Below, one piece after another: positions 15,199 to 21,578 of a stretch of DNA of 53,790 nucleotides; positions within the stretch are counted from its first letter, which is position 1; every line of letters begins with the position of its first letter. The translations under genes were made by a program, and so were the position numbers. This DNA is from an uncultured Bacilli bacterium (GTDB taxonomy: Bacteria > Bacillota_I > Bacilli_A > RFN20 > CAG-631): positions 1-53,790 of the forward strand of contig CANQTM010000008.1 of NCBI GenBank assembly GCA_947626825.1. The letters are read 5' to 3'. The notes under the pieces were generated by a model. The model worked only from the letters and a program-made list of their open reading frames with translations, was not told the DNA's origin and searched no databases.

Positions 15199-15492
15199 AT
15201 GAGCCGTAAGTCTATTCATGTTACTTATCGTAAAAGTGATGGTCAATGGCATGTCTGTAATGGTTTAAATGGTACTTCATCTGGTAAATATCAAACACAA
15301 AAAGAAGCTATTTCAGCTGGAAGAAAATTAGCAATGGAAGCATCAGCTGAATTTTGTGTTCATGGAAAAGATGGAAAAATTAGATTATCAACATCATATG
15401 GAAACGATCCAAGTGATTCAATGAAGTATAAACGTAGCAAGACTGTAACTACTAAAAGACCTTCAAGAAGAAATTCAAGATCAGGTAATTAA
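15199..15492 (+). CDS. DUF2188 domain protein
   Basis: A 97-residue basic protein with the DUF2188 pattern: an N-terminal strand pair (IHVTYRKSDGQWHVCNG), a helix after YQTQKEAISAGRKLA, then CVHGKDGKIRLSTSYGNDP. The C-terminal 20 residues are Lys/Arg/Ser-rich (KYKRSKTVTTKRPSRRNSRS), suggesting nucleic-acid contact. The family is widespread but has no settled function. GAAAGGAAA precedes the ATG and a terminator follows, so it stands alone. Confidence 0.8.
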   Translation: MSRKSIHVTYRKSDGQWHVCNGLNGTSSGKYQTQKEAISAGRKLAMEASAEFCVHGKDGKIRLSTSYGNDPSDSMKYKRSKTVTTKRPSRRNSRSGN

Positions 15493-15602: not shown

Positions 15603-15971
15603 ATGATGCCTACAAAAAAAAGTCAGCATTATATAAGTGCTACAAATAATTCAAAGCATTCAATTAAATATTTACAAAACAAGGTAATGGAATATTTCAT
15701 AAAATATAACCGTTGCCAAATTGAAATTCAATATTATGATTCAATTATTAAAAACTGTTCAAAAAACATAACATCAAAAGATGATTTGATTCAATATGTT
15801 AACTATATTGATGAAATAATAAATCATCTAAGTGAGGATGCACAAGAAATTTTTAAAAATGAATTTGTTGTAAGCAATAATAATTCTTGGTGGGAAAGAA
15901 AATATAATCGTTCAAAATATTTTAAAGTCAAAAAAAATGCTTTAAGTGAGTTCTTATTATATGCATCCTAA
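15603..15971 (+). CDS. Small protein with WW..R.Y.RSKY motif, first gene of secretion operon
   Basis: The ATG at 15603 (or 15606) is chosen over an upstream TTG because AGAGGAAG sits seven bases before it. The roughly 122-residue product is basic and helical. Its C-terminal third (LSEDAQEIFKNEF, then WWERKYNRSKYFKVKKNA) resembles the recognition helix of sigma-like or ArpU/MG284-type phage and mycoplasma regulators. That resemblance is by eye only. It overlaps the next gene by 11 bp, so it could be a dedicated regulator of the secretion locus. A structural role cannot be excluded. Confidence 0.6.
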   Translation: MMPTKKSQHYISATNNSKHSIKYLQNKVMEYFIKYNRCQIEIQYYDSIIKNCSKNITSKDDLIQYVNYIDEIINHLSEDAQEIFKNEFVVSNNNSWWERKYNRSKYFKVKKNALSEFLLYAS

Positions 15972-16962
15972 TTTAAAAATGTTATTAATGAGTTCAATAA
16001 TGCCATTTTCTATAAGCACTCGTGCATCAGTGGTGCAAGATTTAGATCCTATATCTATTAGTGGCTTTGTAGAAATGCCAAATTTAAATCATGCAATTCC
16101 ACTTAATTTAAATATGGTCGATGGACATCCCTTTGCATATATTGATGTTGTTGTTAAAGTAAATGGTAAAATTGAAATAAACGAAGAAATTATTACAAAA
16201 TATTTATCTACCAAAAATTATTCTATTTCAGGTTTTAAAAATCCAAATGAATCTAAACAAATTGAAATTAGTGTTTCTTATACTAAAACAAATGTTACTC
16301 CTTCAGTTTGTAAATTTAATTTTTATGCACCAAGATGTGGTGAAATCTTAATTGAAAATGTAGGAAGAAGAGAATATGTTGAACAAAATCCTATTAGAAT
16401 TGATTTTTCAATGAAGGGGAGTTCAAATAATATTGTAAATACTAATGAATCTGCTCAATTTATTGGAACTAGTGGCATTACTTGTCAAAATACTAGATAT
16501 GTATTTTTTGATTGGTTTAATTTTTATATTAAAAATAGCAAAACTGATATTAAAGAATGTGAGGCTAGATTATATACCAAAGTTGATAACTCTGATTTAA
16601 TTTATAATGGTGAATATGTTTCTTTTTCATTACCAGTTTGGCAATTTTCTGAAGGAAAATATCAAGTTTATGATTTAGGCAGTTTTTATATAAATAATAA
16701 AACTGGTGGTGTACAAATAAACTATACTGATGATTGTGATACTGAATTGTTAAAATTTTTCATGCCTTTTTCATATGGTACTGATACAACGTTATTCGGA
16801 GAATTAGTTTATCATAATGTTGGGAAAAACATGAACACATATATTTATAGATTTATTATTAAAATATATGATACTGTTAGCAAAAACAGTGGTATATATG
16901 GTAGCTTTTTACAATTTGAATATCGAGAATTTGATGACTATTTGGATGTAGATTATGAATAA
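15961..16962 (+). CDS. Putative secreted beta-rich protein of the Tad-like locus
   Basis: No family was recognised. Starting at the ATG at 15961, the 333-residue product has a short basic N-terminus, a hydrophobic stretch (MLLMSSIMPFSIS) and a possible signal cleavage after TRA. The rest alternates short strands and is rich in Asn, Tyr and Ser, as expected for an exported beta-sandwich or adhesin-like protein. It overlaps the genes on both sides (11 and 8 bp), so it is made together with the secretion machine and is a candidate pilus-tip, assembly or substrate protein. An upstream GTG would add five residues but has no ribosome site. Confidence 0.6.
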   Translation: MHPNLKMLLMSSIMPFSISTRASVVQDLDPISISGFVEMPNLNHAIPLNLNMVDGHPFAYIDVVVKVNGKIEINEEIITKYLSTKNYSISGFKNPNESKQIEISVSYTKTNVTPSVCKFNFYAPRCGEILIENVGRREYVEQNPIRIDFSMKGSSNNIVNTNESAQFIGTSGITCQNTRYVFFDWFNFYIKNSKTDIKECEARLYTKVDNSDLIYNGEYVSFSLPVWQFSEGKYQVYDLGSFYINNKTGGVQINYTDDCDTELLKFFMPFSYGTDTTLFGELVYHNVGKNMNTYIYRFIIKIYDTVSKNSGIYGSFLQFEYREFDDYLDVDYE

Positions 16963-17365
16963 TTGCTTTTCAATTATGTTAGCAAGTATTATATCTATTC
17001 AAACATTTGCCAACATAGTTATTTCAAATAAAATTGATGCAACACTAAATCTAATTAATGAAGAAATGGTGGCGGCATCTATAACTGAAAAAAGTAAATT
17101 AGAAGCATACCATTATAATGATCCATCAGAACTTGCAATTGATCAAAAAATGTTAATGAAATTAGTTTCAACAACCATTGAAAAAAATTTATCATTTTTA
17201 GATTATGAAGCAAATTATTATTTTTATCACAATAAAATAAAAAGACAATGTCCAATTGATACAGAAAACTATATTTGTAATAGTGTTCAAATGCAAATAA
17301 TAATTTTTTATCAAAATAAATCATATGAGGAAAATTTAAGATATGAGCCTACTAAAATCTACTAA
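16955..17365 (+). CDS. Pilin-like (TadE-like) membrane protein, 136 aa
   Basis: A hydrophobic N-terminal helix (about 4-24, CFSIMLASIISIQTFANIV) is followed by a helical and then strand-rich extracytoplasmic domain of about 110 residues. This is the architecture of TadE/TadF or minor pseudopilins. It overlaps the upstream gene by 8 bp and the ATPase gene by 23 bp. No glutamate at the usual pilin +5 position is obvious, so processing by a prepilin peptidase is uncertain. The pilin-like role is inferred from shape and context. Confidence 0.55.
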   Translation: MNNCFSIMLASIISIQTFANIVISNKIDATLNLINEEMVAASITEKSKLEAYHYNDPSELAIDQKMLMKLVSTTIEKNLSFLDYEANYYFYHNKIKRQCPIDTENYICNSVQMQIIIFYQNKSYEENLRYEPTKIY

Positions 17366-18497
17366 AAAAAAGAAAATTGAAAAAAAAGAAAATACTATAA
17401 TTCAGGAAAATTCAGAAGAATGTATAAATTTAGTTGAAAATTCATTTTTAAAAGGTGTATTTAATGATACTACTACAGATGTATCATACAATGGAGAAGC
17501 TTTATTTGCTCAAGATAATGATATAGGAAGATATCCATTAAATATTAAAGTTAGTAATGATGATGTAATGGAATTTATTAAAAAAATAGCTAACTACATG
17601 CTACAACCATTTTCTACAAAAAGTCCATCACTTGATGTATCATTTGGAGATTATCGCTTAAATGCACTTCATCCATCATTTGCTAGAAATAATAATAAAA
17701 AAGTTGTGACTTTTTCATTAAGAAGAATTACTGCCACATTAAAAATAAAAGAAAATGATCCATGTTTATGTCCATTAGTTGTTCACAATTTTTTAAAATG
17801 TCTAATGTTAAGTTATCAAAGCATTCTTATTTCAGGGCAAACAGGAGCTGGTAAAACTGAATTTCAAAAATATTTAATTTCTTTAATGAATAAAAAAGAT
17901 CGAATAATAATCATTGAAGAAAGTTACGAAACACATATTAAGGAAATATATCCTGAAATGGATATCACAAGTTGGATTACAAATAATCATATAGAAGAAT
18001 TATCAAATTTAATAAAAATAGCATTACGAAATAATCCCGATTGGTTGATAGTAGCAGAGACACGAGGTATTGAAGCCTACGATATGATTCAAGCTGCAAT
18101 GACTGGACATAGTGCTATTACAACAATACATAGCGAATCCGCTAAATTTTCATTAGATAGAATTTCAAGTATGTGTAAAAAAAGCATTGATTTTGATGAG
18201 CAGTTAATGTTATCAAATATTGCTAAACATATAAAAATAGGTATTCATTTAGAAAAGATTTTTGATCAAGATAGAAATAAATATATTCGCCGAATTTCTG
18301 AAATCGTTGAATATATTCCAATGGTTAAAGGCTATAAAACTAATGTTTTATTTCAAATTGTTAAAAATGATAAATTAAAAGAAAAATACGTTTATAAAAT
18401 AATAAGCAAGGATTTAAAAAAGGTATTTATTAAAAATAATATATCATTAAATAATATTACTAAATTTATTAAAGAGGATCGCAAAAGTGAAGATTAA
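17343..18497 (+). CDS. CpaF/TadA-type secretion ATPase
   Basis: A hexameric type II/IV secretion ATPase that powers assembly of Tad-type pili or a related export machine at the cytoplasmic face. Walker A is GQTGAGKTE (about 165-173). IIIIEESYE is the acidic Asp/Glu box, DWLIVAETRG is the Walker B region, and TGHSAITTIHS is the His box, all in the CpaF/VirB11 order. At 384 residues it lacks much of the long N-terminal region of typical TadA proteins. The first 30 residues are very Lys/Glu-rich. It lies directly upstream of the two membrane-platform genes, with 11-bp overlap. Confidence 0.9.
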   Translation: MSLLKSTKKKKIEKKENTIIQENSEECINLVENSFLKGVFNDTTTDVSYNGEALFAQDNDIGRYPLNIKVSNDDVMEFIKKIANYMLQPFSTKSPSLDVSFGDYRLNALHPSFARNNNKKVVTFSLRRITATLKIKENDPCLCPLVVHNFLKCLMLSYQSILISGQTGAGKTEFQKYLISLMNKKDRIIIIEESYETHIKEIYPEMDITSWITNNHIEELSNLIKIALRNNPDWLIVAETRGIEAYDMIQAAMTGHSAITTIHSESAKFSLDRISSMCKKSIDFDEQLMLSNIAKHIKIGIHLEKIFDQDRNKYIRRISEIVEYIPMVKGYKTNVLFQIVKNDKLKEKYVYKIISKDLKKVFIKNNISLNNITKFIKEDRKSED

Positions 18498-19179
18498 AAA
18501 ATTTAAAAATTTGTTATATTTTATTATATTTTTATTTGTAGCAACATTTACTGTATGGTATGCAACAAATTCCCTACTTTTATCTTTAGCATTTGATATT
18601 TTAATTTTAATTGGAATGATTAGAATAAAAAAATTAAATACTAAAAAGAATAAATTAATTCACAATATAGATGCAGCATATAATTTTGTAAATCTAATGA
18701 ACATTCAAATGCTATCTACAACAAGTGTTTATGAGGCTTACAAAAGTATAGAAAATTATATTGATGCTGATTTTGCAAATATTGATAGTGATGATATTCA
18801 TGAGCAATTAAATGAAGTAGCTAATAATTATAATTTAAATTCATTTAAAATGTATGTTCACACTCTACAAATTTATGAAAATGAAGGCGGAAATTTTAAA
18901 AAAATGCAGGAAATTCCAACTTCATTATGTCAAAAATGTAAAATTTATTATCACAAATTAGAAAAAAATAAATTTTCAAAGCTCATAGAAATATCTACAT
19001 TATTTATTTTATGGATATTGATAATTTATATTTTAAGAATATCAATTCCAGATTATTATGAAAAAATGATGGAAAATGTTCTAACACAAATTGGAATGTT
19101 TGCCATTATTGCCACAGGCGGTTTCTTATATTACCAAGCTGTAAAAGAATATTTAATCAATGAAATAAGAGGTTTATAA
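18487..19179 (+). CDS. TadB-like platform membrane protein
   Basis: A 230-residue protein with two N-terminal membrane segments (about 8-45), a cytoplasmic helical domain (50-165) and two C-terminal segments (about 170-190 and 203-222). This matches the T2SF/TadB platform layout. The cytoplasmic part contains the alternating TSVYEAYKSIENYI and LQIYENEGGNFKKMQEIP stretches typical of T2SF domains. It overlaps the ATPase gene and is followed two bases later by the second platform gene. Sequence similarity is weak, so the assignment relies on topology and gene order. Confidence 0.75.
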   Translation: MKIKKFKNLLYFIIFLFVATFTVWYATNSLLLSLAFDILILIGMIRIKKLNTKKNKLIHNIDAAYNFVNLMNIQMLSTTSVYEAYKSIENYIDADFANIDSDDIHEQLNEVANNYNLNSFKMYVHTLQIYENEGGNFKKMQEIPTSLCQKCKIYYHKLEKNKFSKLIEISTLFILWILIIYILRISIPDYYEKMMENVLTQIGMFAIIATGGFLYYQAVKEYLINEIRGL

Positions 19180-19181
19180 AA

Positions 19182-19847
19182 ATGTTTGACAAGTATAAAG
19201 AAATGTGTAAAAAATTAAAAATCAATTTCAAAAAAGATTTCTCTCTAACCCTATCAATTTTTCTAATAATGATAATTGCTAGTATAACGTTATTTTTCTT
19301 CTATTCATATATAACTTTATGTCTAGGCATTATGTGCTCTTTTCTATATTTATTTACACATTTTGAAAATCTAAAAGCATCTTTAAAACAACTTACCAAT
19401 GCCAAAGAAATCGCCTTTAATGGTTTTTATAGATATGTTGTAACTTTATTAACAAATGGAAATGTATTATATTCTGCCTTGCAGATGTCTACAGAATATG
19501 TTGATAATGTTCTAGTTGATGATGTAAATGAATTAATTGCCGATATTGAAAATGATACTTCAATTGAACCATTCTTTAAATTTATGAGTAATTTCAATGA
19601 TGAATCAATAAAACAAATGATTTTACTTTTATATAAAACACAAGAAGTAGGAATTATTAATGATGTATTAGATAGTATTAATGAAAGCATGATTAACTTA
19701 CAAGATAATTCCATTTCAAATTATATTTCCAAAGAAGAAAAAAATATTGAAAGGTTTTATATGGTACCTATTCTTTTATCAGCATTAGTAATGGTTTTTA
19801 TTTCACTTTATATCTTTTCATTAATAGGAGAAGGAATTTATGTCTAA
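19182..19847 (+). CDS. TadC-like platform membrane protein
   Basis: A 221-residue protein with two closely spaced N-terminal membrane segments (about 20-60), a cytoplasmic helical domain with TNGNVLYSALQMSTEYVDNV and LLYKTQEVGIINDVLDSINE, and one C-terminal segment (about 193-215). It pairs with the preceding TadB-like protein as the inner-membrane platform against which the CpaF ATPase works. It ends 8 bp inside the next gene. Confidence 0.75.
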   Translation: MFDKYKEMCKKLKINFKKDFSLTLSIFLIMIIASITLFFFYSYITLCLGIMCSFLYLFTHFENLKASLKQLTNAKEIAFNGFYRYVVTLLTNGNVLYSALQMSTEYVDNVLVDDVNELIADIENDTSIEPFFKFMSNFNDESIKQMILLLYKTQEVGIINDVLDSINESMINLQDNSISNYISKEEKNIERFYMVPILLSALVMVFISLYIFSLIGEGIYV

Positions 19848-20193
19848 TAATTTTGGATTAATGTTATCAATGATTTTTCTTAGTCTATTTATTGTCTTAT
19901 CTGGTGAAATTATATCCTATCAACAAACATCAGCAATTGCAATGTCTAAAACTAGTATTATTGCTTCATTTATAGAAAGAAATGGATATAATGAAATAAC
20001 AATAAATAATTTAGAAGTTACAAAATATTTTGATCGCTTTGAAATGAACATAGATAGAAATGTAGAGACTGGTATTGCAAATTATTGTTTAACAACATAT
20101 AAACAATACAATGCAATTTCCAAAGTATATTCTTTTTTTAGCGGTGAAATAACATGTGAATTAGTCATATGTAGAAAGGAGTATTATGTCTGA
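19840..20193 (+). CDS. Pilin-like (TadE-like) protein, 117 aa
   Basis: An N-terminal hydrophobic helix (about 6-27, LMLSMIFLSLFIVLSGEII) is followed by a roughly 90-residue extracytoplasmic domain with two cysteines far apart (NYCLTT and EITCEL). This is minor-pilin architecture. It ends with TGA, overlapping the ATG of the 48-residue gene. It is probably a TadE/TadF equivalent; no exact family was identified. Confidence 0.6.
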   Translation: MSNNFGLMLSMIFLSLFIVLSGEIISYQQTSAIAMSKTSIIASFIERNGYNEITINNLEVTKYFDRFEMNIDRNVETGIANYCLTTYKQYNAISKVYSFFSGEITCELVICRKEYYV

Positions 20194-20332
20194 GTTTAAA
20201 GCACAAATTTTAGGTATTTTAATTGTTGTTGCAGTTTTTGGTGTTTTAATGGTTTCTTATAAAAAACTAACAGAAAACACTATTTCTGATGTAACACAAA
20301 AAGTCTCAGAAGTTGTTAATTCTACTAATTAA
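20186..20332 (+). CDS. 48-aa Flp-pilin-like protein
   Basis: This is a short gene that length cut-offs would miss. AGAAAGGAG (20172-20180) is well placed before ATG at 20186, which overlaps the previous stop. The product begins MSEFKAQILGILIVVAVFGV, continues with one hydrophobic helix to about residue 24, then a polar amphipathic tail (KKLTENTISDVTQKVSEVV). Size and pattern match Flp-type major pilins, which form the fibre in Tad systems. The conserved Glu/Tyr after the cleavage site is not present, so the processing site is unclear. As the last gene of the operon it is the best candidate for the main fibre subunit. Confidence 0.65.
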   Translation: MSEFKAQILGILIVVAVFGVLMVSYKKLTENTISDVTQKVSEVVNSTN

Positions 20333-20349
20333 AATAATAATAAAATACT

Positions 20350-20380
20350 GACCTCTCATATAATTTATGGGAGGTTTTTT
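20350..20380 (+). terminator. Terminator-like hairpin that contains the next gene's ribosome site
   Basis: ACCTCTCAT pairs with ATGGGAGGT across a short AT loop (20350-20375) and is followed by T6, a classic intrinsic terminator after the pilin operon. The 3' arm contains GGGAGG (20369-20374), which is also the ribosome site for the ATG at 20381, so read-through transcripts would have a sequestered ribosome site. Confidence 0.6.
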
Positions 20381-20827
20381 ATGATTAAAAAAGTTATTAA
20401 ATTTTTAAATTTGATTTTAATTATTATTGCCATAATAATTTCATATTTAATGTTTACCAATAAAGAAGAAAATTTTAAAAAATTACACAATTTGTTTAAT
20501 GTTATAACTAATTATTTAAACCTTGGTTATAAAGAAAAAAGTGTTTCAAGTAGTATTAAATTTATTAATATTGAAAACGATAATTATTTTAATTATGATT
20601 ACCAAGTATATGCACCATCTAATGGTACCATTTTAGATTGTAATGATAATTCCATTATCGTTAAATGTGAAAATGGTTATTTAGCAATTTTTGAAAATTT
20701 AATTAATGTAAATGTTAGTAAATTTGATGTTGTTTATAAAAATGATAGATTAGCTAATTTTATAGAAACATTTACTTTTTATTATTTTTTAAATGGTGAA
20801 AAATATACCTATGAAGAAATTATATAA
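20381..20827 (+). CDS. SpoIVFA-like membrane protein with degenerate LytM domain
   Basis: A 148-residue protein with one membrane helix (about 8-25) and a C-terminal LytM/M23-like fold (VYAPSNGTILDCNDNSIIV, then NGYLAIFENL). The zinc-binding His residues of active M23 peptidases are absent. The same combination of a membrane anchor, an inactive M23 domain and an adjacent M50 protease is seen in SpoIVFA, which holds and inhibits SpoIVFB in Bacillus. Here the gene directly precedes and overlaps an M50 protease gene. Similarity to SpoIVFA is structural and positional rather than strong in sequence. Confidence 0.6.
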   Translation: MIKKVIKFLNLILIIIAIIISYLMFTNKEENFKKLHNLFNVITNYLNLGYKEKSVSSSIKFINIENDNYFNYDYQVYAPSNGTILDCNDNSIIVKCENGYLAIFENLINVNVSKFDVVYKNDRLANFIETFTFYYFLNGEKYTYEEII

Positions 20828-21578
20828 ATTACTTAATGTTTTCAATATAAAGTTATCAACTATTCTTATCATTATTTTTTCTATTTTATTTGGGAATTTT
20901 AAGCAAATGCTTTGGTTATTTATTATTGCTTTAATACATGAATGTTTTCATTTATTGGCATGTTTATTACTAAAAATAAAAATAGAAAAACTAACATTAT
21001 TACCATTTGGAGCATATTTAAAAGTAAACGATGTAGAAAATATTAGTTTTATAAAACAAATAATAATTTATATTGCTGGCCCATTATCAATGTTTTTTAA
21101 TTTAATTTGGATAAATTTATTTTATAAATATCATTTTCTAAATGAAATAAATTTCACATTTTTAAAACAAATTAATTTTAATATGTTTATTGTAAATATA
21201 TTACCTATATATCCATTAGATGGTTATATGATAATAAGAGCGATAATTGGTTTTTTTAAACCATATAAAAAGACTTTAAAACTATCATATATTATTTCAA
21301 TAATTACTTTTTTATTTTTTGTTTTATATAATTTTATTTCATTTCAGCCAATGTTAACTATTTTTCTTTTAATAGAACAAATAAAAGCAATTTTAAAATA
21401 TAAAGATATATACAAAAAATTTCTAATTAATAAAAGTAAATTTAAAAAGCAAAAGAAATTTAAAATAATTCCAGATTATTTAATGTTTAAAGACACAAAC
21501 AATTATAAAATTGAAAATGAAAAAATTTTAAACGATTCAGATATTGCCATTAAAGAACTAAAAAACTATGTAAAATAA
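20811..21578 (+). CDS. M50 site-2 protease, SpoIVFB-like
   Basis: An intramembrane zinc protease of 255 residues from the ATG at 20811 (an upstream ATG at 20793 would add six residues). HECFH (43-47) in LIALIHECFHLLACLL-type context is the HExxH zinc motif, and NILPIYPLDG (129-138) supplies the conserved Asp. About five membrane segments are seen, plus a Lys-rich C-terminal tail of about 60 residues. SpoIVFB cuts pro-sigma-K during sporulation. In this probably non-sporulating lineage the substrate may be another membrane-tethered regulator. The usual C-terminal CBS domain is missing, but a CBS protein gene lies 53 bp downstream. Confidence 0.85.
   Translation: MKKLYKLLNVFNIKLSTILIIIFSILFGNFKQMLWLFIIALIHECFHLLACLLLKIKIEKLTLLPFGAYLKVNDVENISFIKQIIIYIAGPLSMFFNLIWINLFYKYHFLNEINFTFLKQINFNMFIVNILPIYPLDGYMIIRAIIGFFKPYKKTLKLSYIISIITFLFFVLYNFISFQPMLTIFLLIEQIKAILKYKDIYKKFLINKSKFKKQKKFKIIPDYLMFKDTNNYKIENEKILNDSDIAIKELKNYVK

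Follow-up and report, generated by a model that had tools for sequence, protein, structure and literature searches.

The operon at 15603–20332 of the window (the whole stretch of 53,790 nucleotides analysed here, a contig of a metagenome-assembled genome of 1.84 Mb, 95% complete) encodes a Tad-like motor and platform with pilin-like proteins. The evidence leans modestly towards a Tad-like surface machine that was captured by the chromosome, does without a prepilin peptidase and serves in adhesion. A wider proposal, which falls somewhat short of being probable, places it in a distinct class of type IV filaments with leaderless, unprocessed pilins and no prepilin peptidase. This class would occur in Gram-positive conjugative elements and as a captured, order-wide surface organelle in uncultured gut Bacilli, and several lineages would later have dropped motor and subunit together, keeping a static complex. 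The filament superfamily itself is already known; what differs is the peptidase-free, leaderless variant. Cleavage of the pilins by an A24 peptidase counts as a hallmark of this superfamily, and an order-wide machine in genomes lacking A24 would, if the proposal is true, show that the superfamily can do without this step.

Layout and gene content

Eight open reading frames (A–H) lie in this interval of the window, all on the + strand. Adjacent genes overlap by 8–23 nt at six of the seven junctions; at the seventh, E and F are separated by 2 nt. The features are:

A, 15603..15971, + strand: 122 aa, predicted DNA-binding regulator of the MG284/MPN403 family (NF045770, E 2.9e-15, above the cut-off); conserved start of the operon
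B, 15961..16962, + strand: 333 aa, secreted, all-beta, putative surface or tip adhesin (no Pfam/NCBIfam family; AF2 model; profile match)
C, 16955..17365, + strand: 136 aa, pilin-like, N-terminal helix and small alpha/beta head (AF2 model; pLS20-family counterpart 91%)
D, 17343..18497, + strand: 384 aa, CpaF/TadA-type motor ATPase (PF00437, E 4.9e-26; PDB matches; tree)
E, 18487..19179, + strand: 230 aa, TadB-like platform protein (profile TadB 76%, TadC 7%; pLS20-family counterpart 97%)
F, 19182..19847, + strand: 221 aa, TadC-like platform protein (profile TadC 76%; PF00482 hit by 5 of 20 members, at best 2.3e-5; pLS20-family counterpart 97%)
G, 19840..20193, + strand: 117 aa, putative TadE/TadF-like minor pilin, leaderless (Pfam TadF hit by 3 of 37 members, at best 2.5e-4; pLS20-family counterpart 96%)
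H, 20186..20332, + strand: 48 aa, Flp-like putative filament subunit with an MSExK(G/A)QxLG signature (five residues invariant; co-lost with D)
Terminator-like hairpin, 20350..20376, + strand: intrinsic, stem of 11 pairs with a T run after it, at the operon end

The overlaps, the hairpin and the order kept in relatives confirm the preliminary description of eight tightly packed genes as one unit; the protein sizes given there (333, 117 and 136 aa) are correct, and its set of a CpaF/TadA-type ATPase, TadB- and TadC-like platform proteins and three pilin-like proteins is supported. None of the accessory proteins proved to belong to a Com or phage family. Weak Pfam matches in the operon (FliJ, terminase, Zeta toxin, BlyA holin) were judged to be chance.

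The operon is flanked by a DUF2188 gene upstream and by M23-like and membrane protease-like genes downstream; no conjugation genes adjoin it in the window or in the chromosomal loci examined. The short DUF2188 protein (window 15199–15492) is encoded immediately 5' of the operon, and has the same position in L035, the only same-genus genome examined, and in G002 (L037). The 3' genes (window 20381–21578) encode an M23-like and a membrane metalloprotease-like protein, the latter S2P/M50-type by eye, and in close relatives this pair precedes genes resembling L21-Prp-L27-Obg. In Bacilli spoIVFA-spoIVFB have the same arrangement ahead of L21-Prp-L27-Obg; sporulation is not known in the lineage of the window organism.

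The product of the small first gene is recognisable: A reaches 56 bits with the NCBIfam model of the MG284/MPN403 C-terminal domain (cut-off 37.3). It ends in the motif WW..YSRSTYYR.K, whose YSRSTYYR.K segment looks like a helix-turn-helix.

B has no family in Pfam or NCBIfam. Its AF2 model is all-beta (pLDDT 66), and the fold search against PDB returned just weak Ig-like, pilin and adhesin matches (TM about 0.2). In the conjugative elements L066 and L069 the slot of B is occupied by a surface protein, and the profile of B matches its C-terminal half (82%, E 1e-5, against at most 0.4% in controls with shuffled or reversed sequences); B is possibly related to this protein. Comparison with TIE, the thioester adhesin of plasmids, gave 2.4%. 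The uncertain model, the weak Ig-like matches and this one homology, seen at profile level only, make B a putative adhesin. A C-terminal CxxSx[YFW]C end is present in 36 of 81 B proteins and absent from that of the window.

Conservation in the order and relatives on conjugative elements

Homologues of D were found in 140 of the 196 relatives searched, a number that falls to about 136 once hits attributed to ATPases of type IV pili or of other kinds are removed. Profiles were built from 20 loci, and gene order was followed in 20 fully read loci and in another 80 from named genomes (uncultured Bacilli, Bacillales and Erysipelotrichaceae metagenome-assembled genomes, Candidatus Onthovivens and Candidatus Fiminaster). 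Most loci with sufficient flanking sequence keep the order A-B-C-D-E-F-G-H, or B–H, across many genera of the group, GTDB order RFN20, so the operon is not a chance assembly. The survey of gene order in related Bacilli thus came out in favour of a conserved unit. A literature search on Tad systems in RF39/RFN20, on the Tad genes of pLS20 and on MG284 returned nothing from its coverage, which leaves out most subscription journals.

The ATPase motifs of D are conserved, and its best PDB matches include CpaF, VirB11, FlaI and archaeal GspE. D falls below the cut-offs of the ComGA model (NF041000, 62.5 bits against 300) and of the VirB11 equivalog (TIGR02788, 104 bits against 250), and it is the sole ATPase above the T2SSE cut-off in the window genome. 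In profile comparison with canonical TadB and TadC of Bacilli, E prefers TadB and F prefers TadC (76% each).

The nearest homologues of D outside the order come from Bacillus atrophaeus, Robertmurraya and a Bacillota metagenome-assembled genome, in conjugative contexts, and others lie on pLS20-type plasmids of Bacillus, Listeria, Enterococcus, Brochothrix and Paraclostridium. In the ATPase tree D of the order is nested among ATPases of conjugative elements: the order clade (support 92) stands beside elements with TrbL/PrgI/VirB4 genes (100), pLS20-type plasmids lie further out (93), and canonical Tads fall outside these (86). On the simplest reading, a conjugative-element module was captured by the ancestor of the order, a direction that depends on rooting and sampling.

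The pLS20-type plasmids (B. subtilis pLS20 HXD20_RS00060–RS00085, pLM5578, E. faecium pZB18) share homologous C-D-E-F-G genes in the same order. Profiles of C, D, E, F and G match the plasmid gene at the same position at 91, 100, 97, 97 and 96%, respectively, and the single cross-match was of F with its paralogue E. These plasmids also lack A24 (0 of 9, with hosts that may supply ComC) and carry a surface protein upstream, and several have small single-helix ORFs 3' of G. They differ in their additional genes for VirD4, a relaxase and further T4SS parts, and in that a thioester adhesin (TIE) stands where the operon has B; gene A was not seen there, and homology of H to the small plasmid proteins was not demonstrable in a profile comparison whose set included one wrongly picked plasmid sequence. 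Efficient mating of pLS20 depends on the neighbouring thioester adhesin (PMC8092201). Gram-positive conjugation systems are described as lacking pili in two papers on pLS20 (PMC8092201, PMC11730352).

Conjugative elements of Bacillota metagenome-assembled genomes (L066, L069, L073, L195) have the ATPases sister to the order clade (100). L066 and L069 carry the surface protein at the slot of B, and L066 encodes a 46-aa small protein beginning with MSEN; in all four the module differs from the operon in being embedded in TrbL/PrgI/VirB4-type genes. What comes closest to the operon is a module that has been overlooked on conjugative plasmids such as pLS20, and since pLS20 is a tractable B. subtilis plasmid, it could be tested in a laboratory strain whether a filament forms without the peptidase. 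Of the "unknown" 333-, 136- and 117-aa proteins of the preliminary description, the last two (C and G) have plasmid counterparts, and B, still outside any Pfam or NCBIfam family, has its possible relative on conjugative elements.

Genes of CPBP-type intramembrane proteases were noted near the Tad-like module at L143:15736–16437 and L147:821–1267, on one Listeria and one Enterococcus plasmid.

Leaderless pilin-like proteins and the prepilin peptidase

The AF2 model of C (pLDDT 94.7, pTM 0.84) has a 32-residue N-terminal helix (residues 2–33), further helices and a three-stranded sheet. Its outline is pilin-like, although the fold search against PDB gave nothing significant; no protein family was found for C. 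In profile comparison G reaches 22% with TadE and C has no match to it, while H shows a weak similarity to Flp pilins (21%). Residues S2, E3, K5, L9 and F18 of H are invariant in an alignment of 40 sequences, and a short conserved S-E-x-K-G/A-Q segment precedes the helix.

In C, G and H the single helix starts at the N terminus, where the longest possible ORF usually begins as well. The prepilin motif is absent from all of them (0 of 81 C, 0 of 73 G, 0 of 70 H), as is the full Flp processing motif G/A-xxxx-E(Y) from H (0 of 70). All 64 H proteins scored have Ser at position 2, and 66 of 73 G proteins have Ser, Gly or Ala there. Methionine aminopeptidase usually removes Met before a small second residue, so Met removal is expected in H and G, giving a free N terminus. 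The short conserved segment with Gly/Ala ahead of the helix of H could instead be cut by some other peptidase.

No A24 peptidase (PF01478) was detected in the window genome even at E ≤ 10, and no secretin was found in it or in any of the 196 genomes. The lack of a prepilin peptidase and of an outer-membrane gene, described earlier for the operon, therefore holds genome-wide, and TadZ/CpaE is missing among the eight operon genes. A24 is absent from 187 of 196 relatives and present in nine, eight of which also have a separate long PilB-type ATPase gene. Because the search detects A24 in relatives with such a gene, it works in these genomes. About 130 genomes have D without A24, and the loci examined show no candidate peptidase that recurs next to the operon. 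A few relatives, sporadically distributed, have the genes for a separate PilB-type type IV pilus ATPase and for A24 on one contig (G011, G025, G053, G083, G105, G157, G166, G181).

The operon resembles a canonical Tad/Flp (type IVc) pilus in its CpaF/TadA ATPase, TadB and TadC, putative small Flp-like subunit and, possibly, its minor proteins, of which G may be TadE/F-like. It differs in having no TadV, no GxxxxEY pilin motif and no RcpC/SAF or secretin, and in an ATPase outside the canonical clade. The operon is not simply the minimal monoderm version described earlier: it lies on a separate ATPase branch, shared with pLS20-type plasmids and conjugative elements, and lacks both the peptidase and the pilin motif that define a Tad. 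Gram-positive tad loci whose pilin motifs could not be recognised have been reported, yet with tadV (PMC3244431). For MSH and other systems known to have no A24 gene of their own, the genome contains another system able to supply one (PMC6668835). The literature covered, outside which most subscription journals lie, yielded no peptidase-free, leaderless version common to chromosomes and conjugative elements. With the ComG competence pseudopilus the operon shares membership of the monoderm type IV filament superfamily; it differs in a ComGA match far below the cut-off, two platform genes and no ComC.

Paired loss of motor and subunit, and possible functions

Among genomes with G, D and H are both present in 131 and both absent from eight, with three exceptions. 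The genomes without both are five of family f3, G086 (genus g25) and G133 and G185 (genus g44). Two exceptions (G165, G194) are contig ends; the third, G057, has a D degenerate in Walker A and catalytic motifs and no H. The remaining order is A-B-C-E-F-G in g44 and B-C-E-F-G in G086. In the tree G057 and G086 are sisters (0.954) and g44 is separate; f3 being another family, D and H were lost independently at least three times, with two losses placed by the tree. The paired loss suggests that D is the motor and H its substrate, for which it is an independent genetic argument, and the persistence of the other genes suggests that they are useful without D and H.

The genes retained in f3 (A, B, C, G and that of a 357-aa membrane protein) are under purifying selection (dN/dS 0.06–0.30). 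In G086 the C protein (L167:4729–5145) is a predicted lipoprotein with an LTGC signal and LPAM_1 above the cut-off; this gain of a lipoprotein signal fits an extracytoplasmic head of C. In the motor-less f3 operons L164–L166 and L176 a membrane protein of 357–372 aa stands at the E/F position; neither similarity to E or F nor an origin as an E/F fusion was demonstrable (3%).

Judged from its genes, the operon may form a fibre or export a substrate. In the proposed mechanism C, G and H would be made already mature, with the N terminus at the helix, and inserted N-in/C-out without need of A24. D would drive E and F to polymerise H into a thin filament, C and G being minor or initiating subunits. 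B would exit by Sec and be held by C/G as the contact-making part, by analogy with the thioester adhesin beside the plasmid module in mating. After loss of motor and subunit, B-C-G on the platform would stay as a static display.

An ordinary Tad pilus whose pilins are cut by a non-A24 or an undetectably divergent A24 peptidase would account for the conserved segment before the helix of H, and a membrane metalloprotease-like gene does lie 3' of the operon in the family of the window. It is nevertheless unlikely, as C and G lack any leader or E5 motif, no recurrent peptidase candidate adjoins the operon in the loci examined, and the plasmid relatives are also without A24. Replacement of ComG by the operon, which would deliver DNA to ComEC, is quite unlikely. 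Some bacteria use Tad pili to take up DNA (PMC6370729, PMC8513845), and the window genome encodes ComEC and no ATPase other than D over the T2SSE cut-off. ComEC is independent of D in the 196 genomes, however (89/47 vs 40/20, p = 1), and is kept in operon-less families, while the ComG-type pilin and ComC are absent; a competence role was rejected because ComEC does not track the operon.

That the operon is a pseudopilus-type exporter with B as its substrate is distinctly improbable: B is secreted and co-operonic and the ATPase and platform are T2SS-like, but B, C and G persist together in motor-less loci, and Sec alone would release B in a monoderm. Least credible, and highly improbable, is a leftover conjugation part with a VirB11-like ATPase and no surface role. 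NCBI and the pLS20 literature name D VirB11 and its closest relatives sit in conjugative elements; against this, the chromosomal operon is isolated from conjugation genes and kept order-wide, with conserved ATPase motifs and TadB/TadC-like partners. A captured, peptidase-free surface machine remains the preferred reading.

Another leaderless Tad-like cluster was noted in family f17 of the same class (L198–L202). It encodes a C-like protein, a SAF/RcpC-resembling protein, an ATPase, TadB/TadC-like proteins, a small protein beginning with MKEATGE and a G-like protein. Four cluster-bearing f17 genomes (G215, G226, G245, G253) have a second ATPase locus, a Tad of canonical type.
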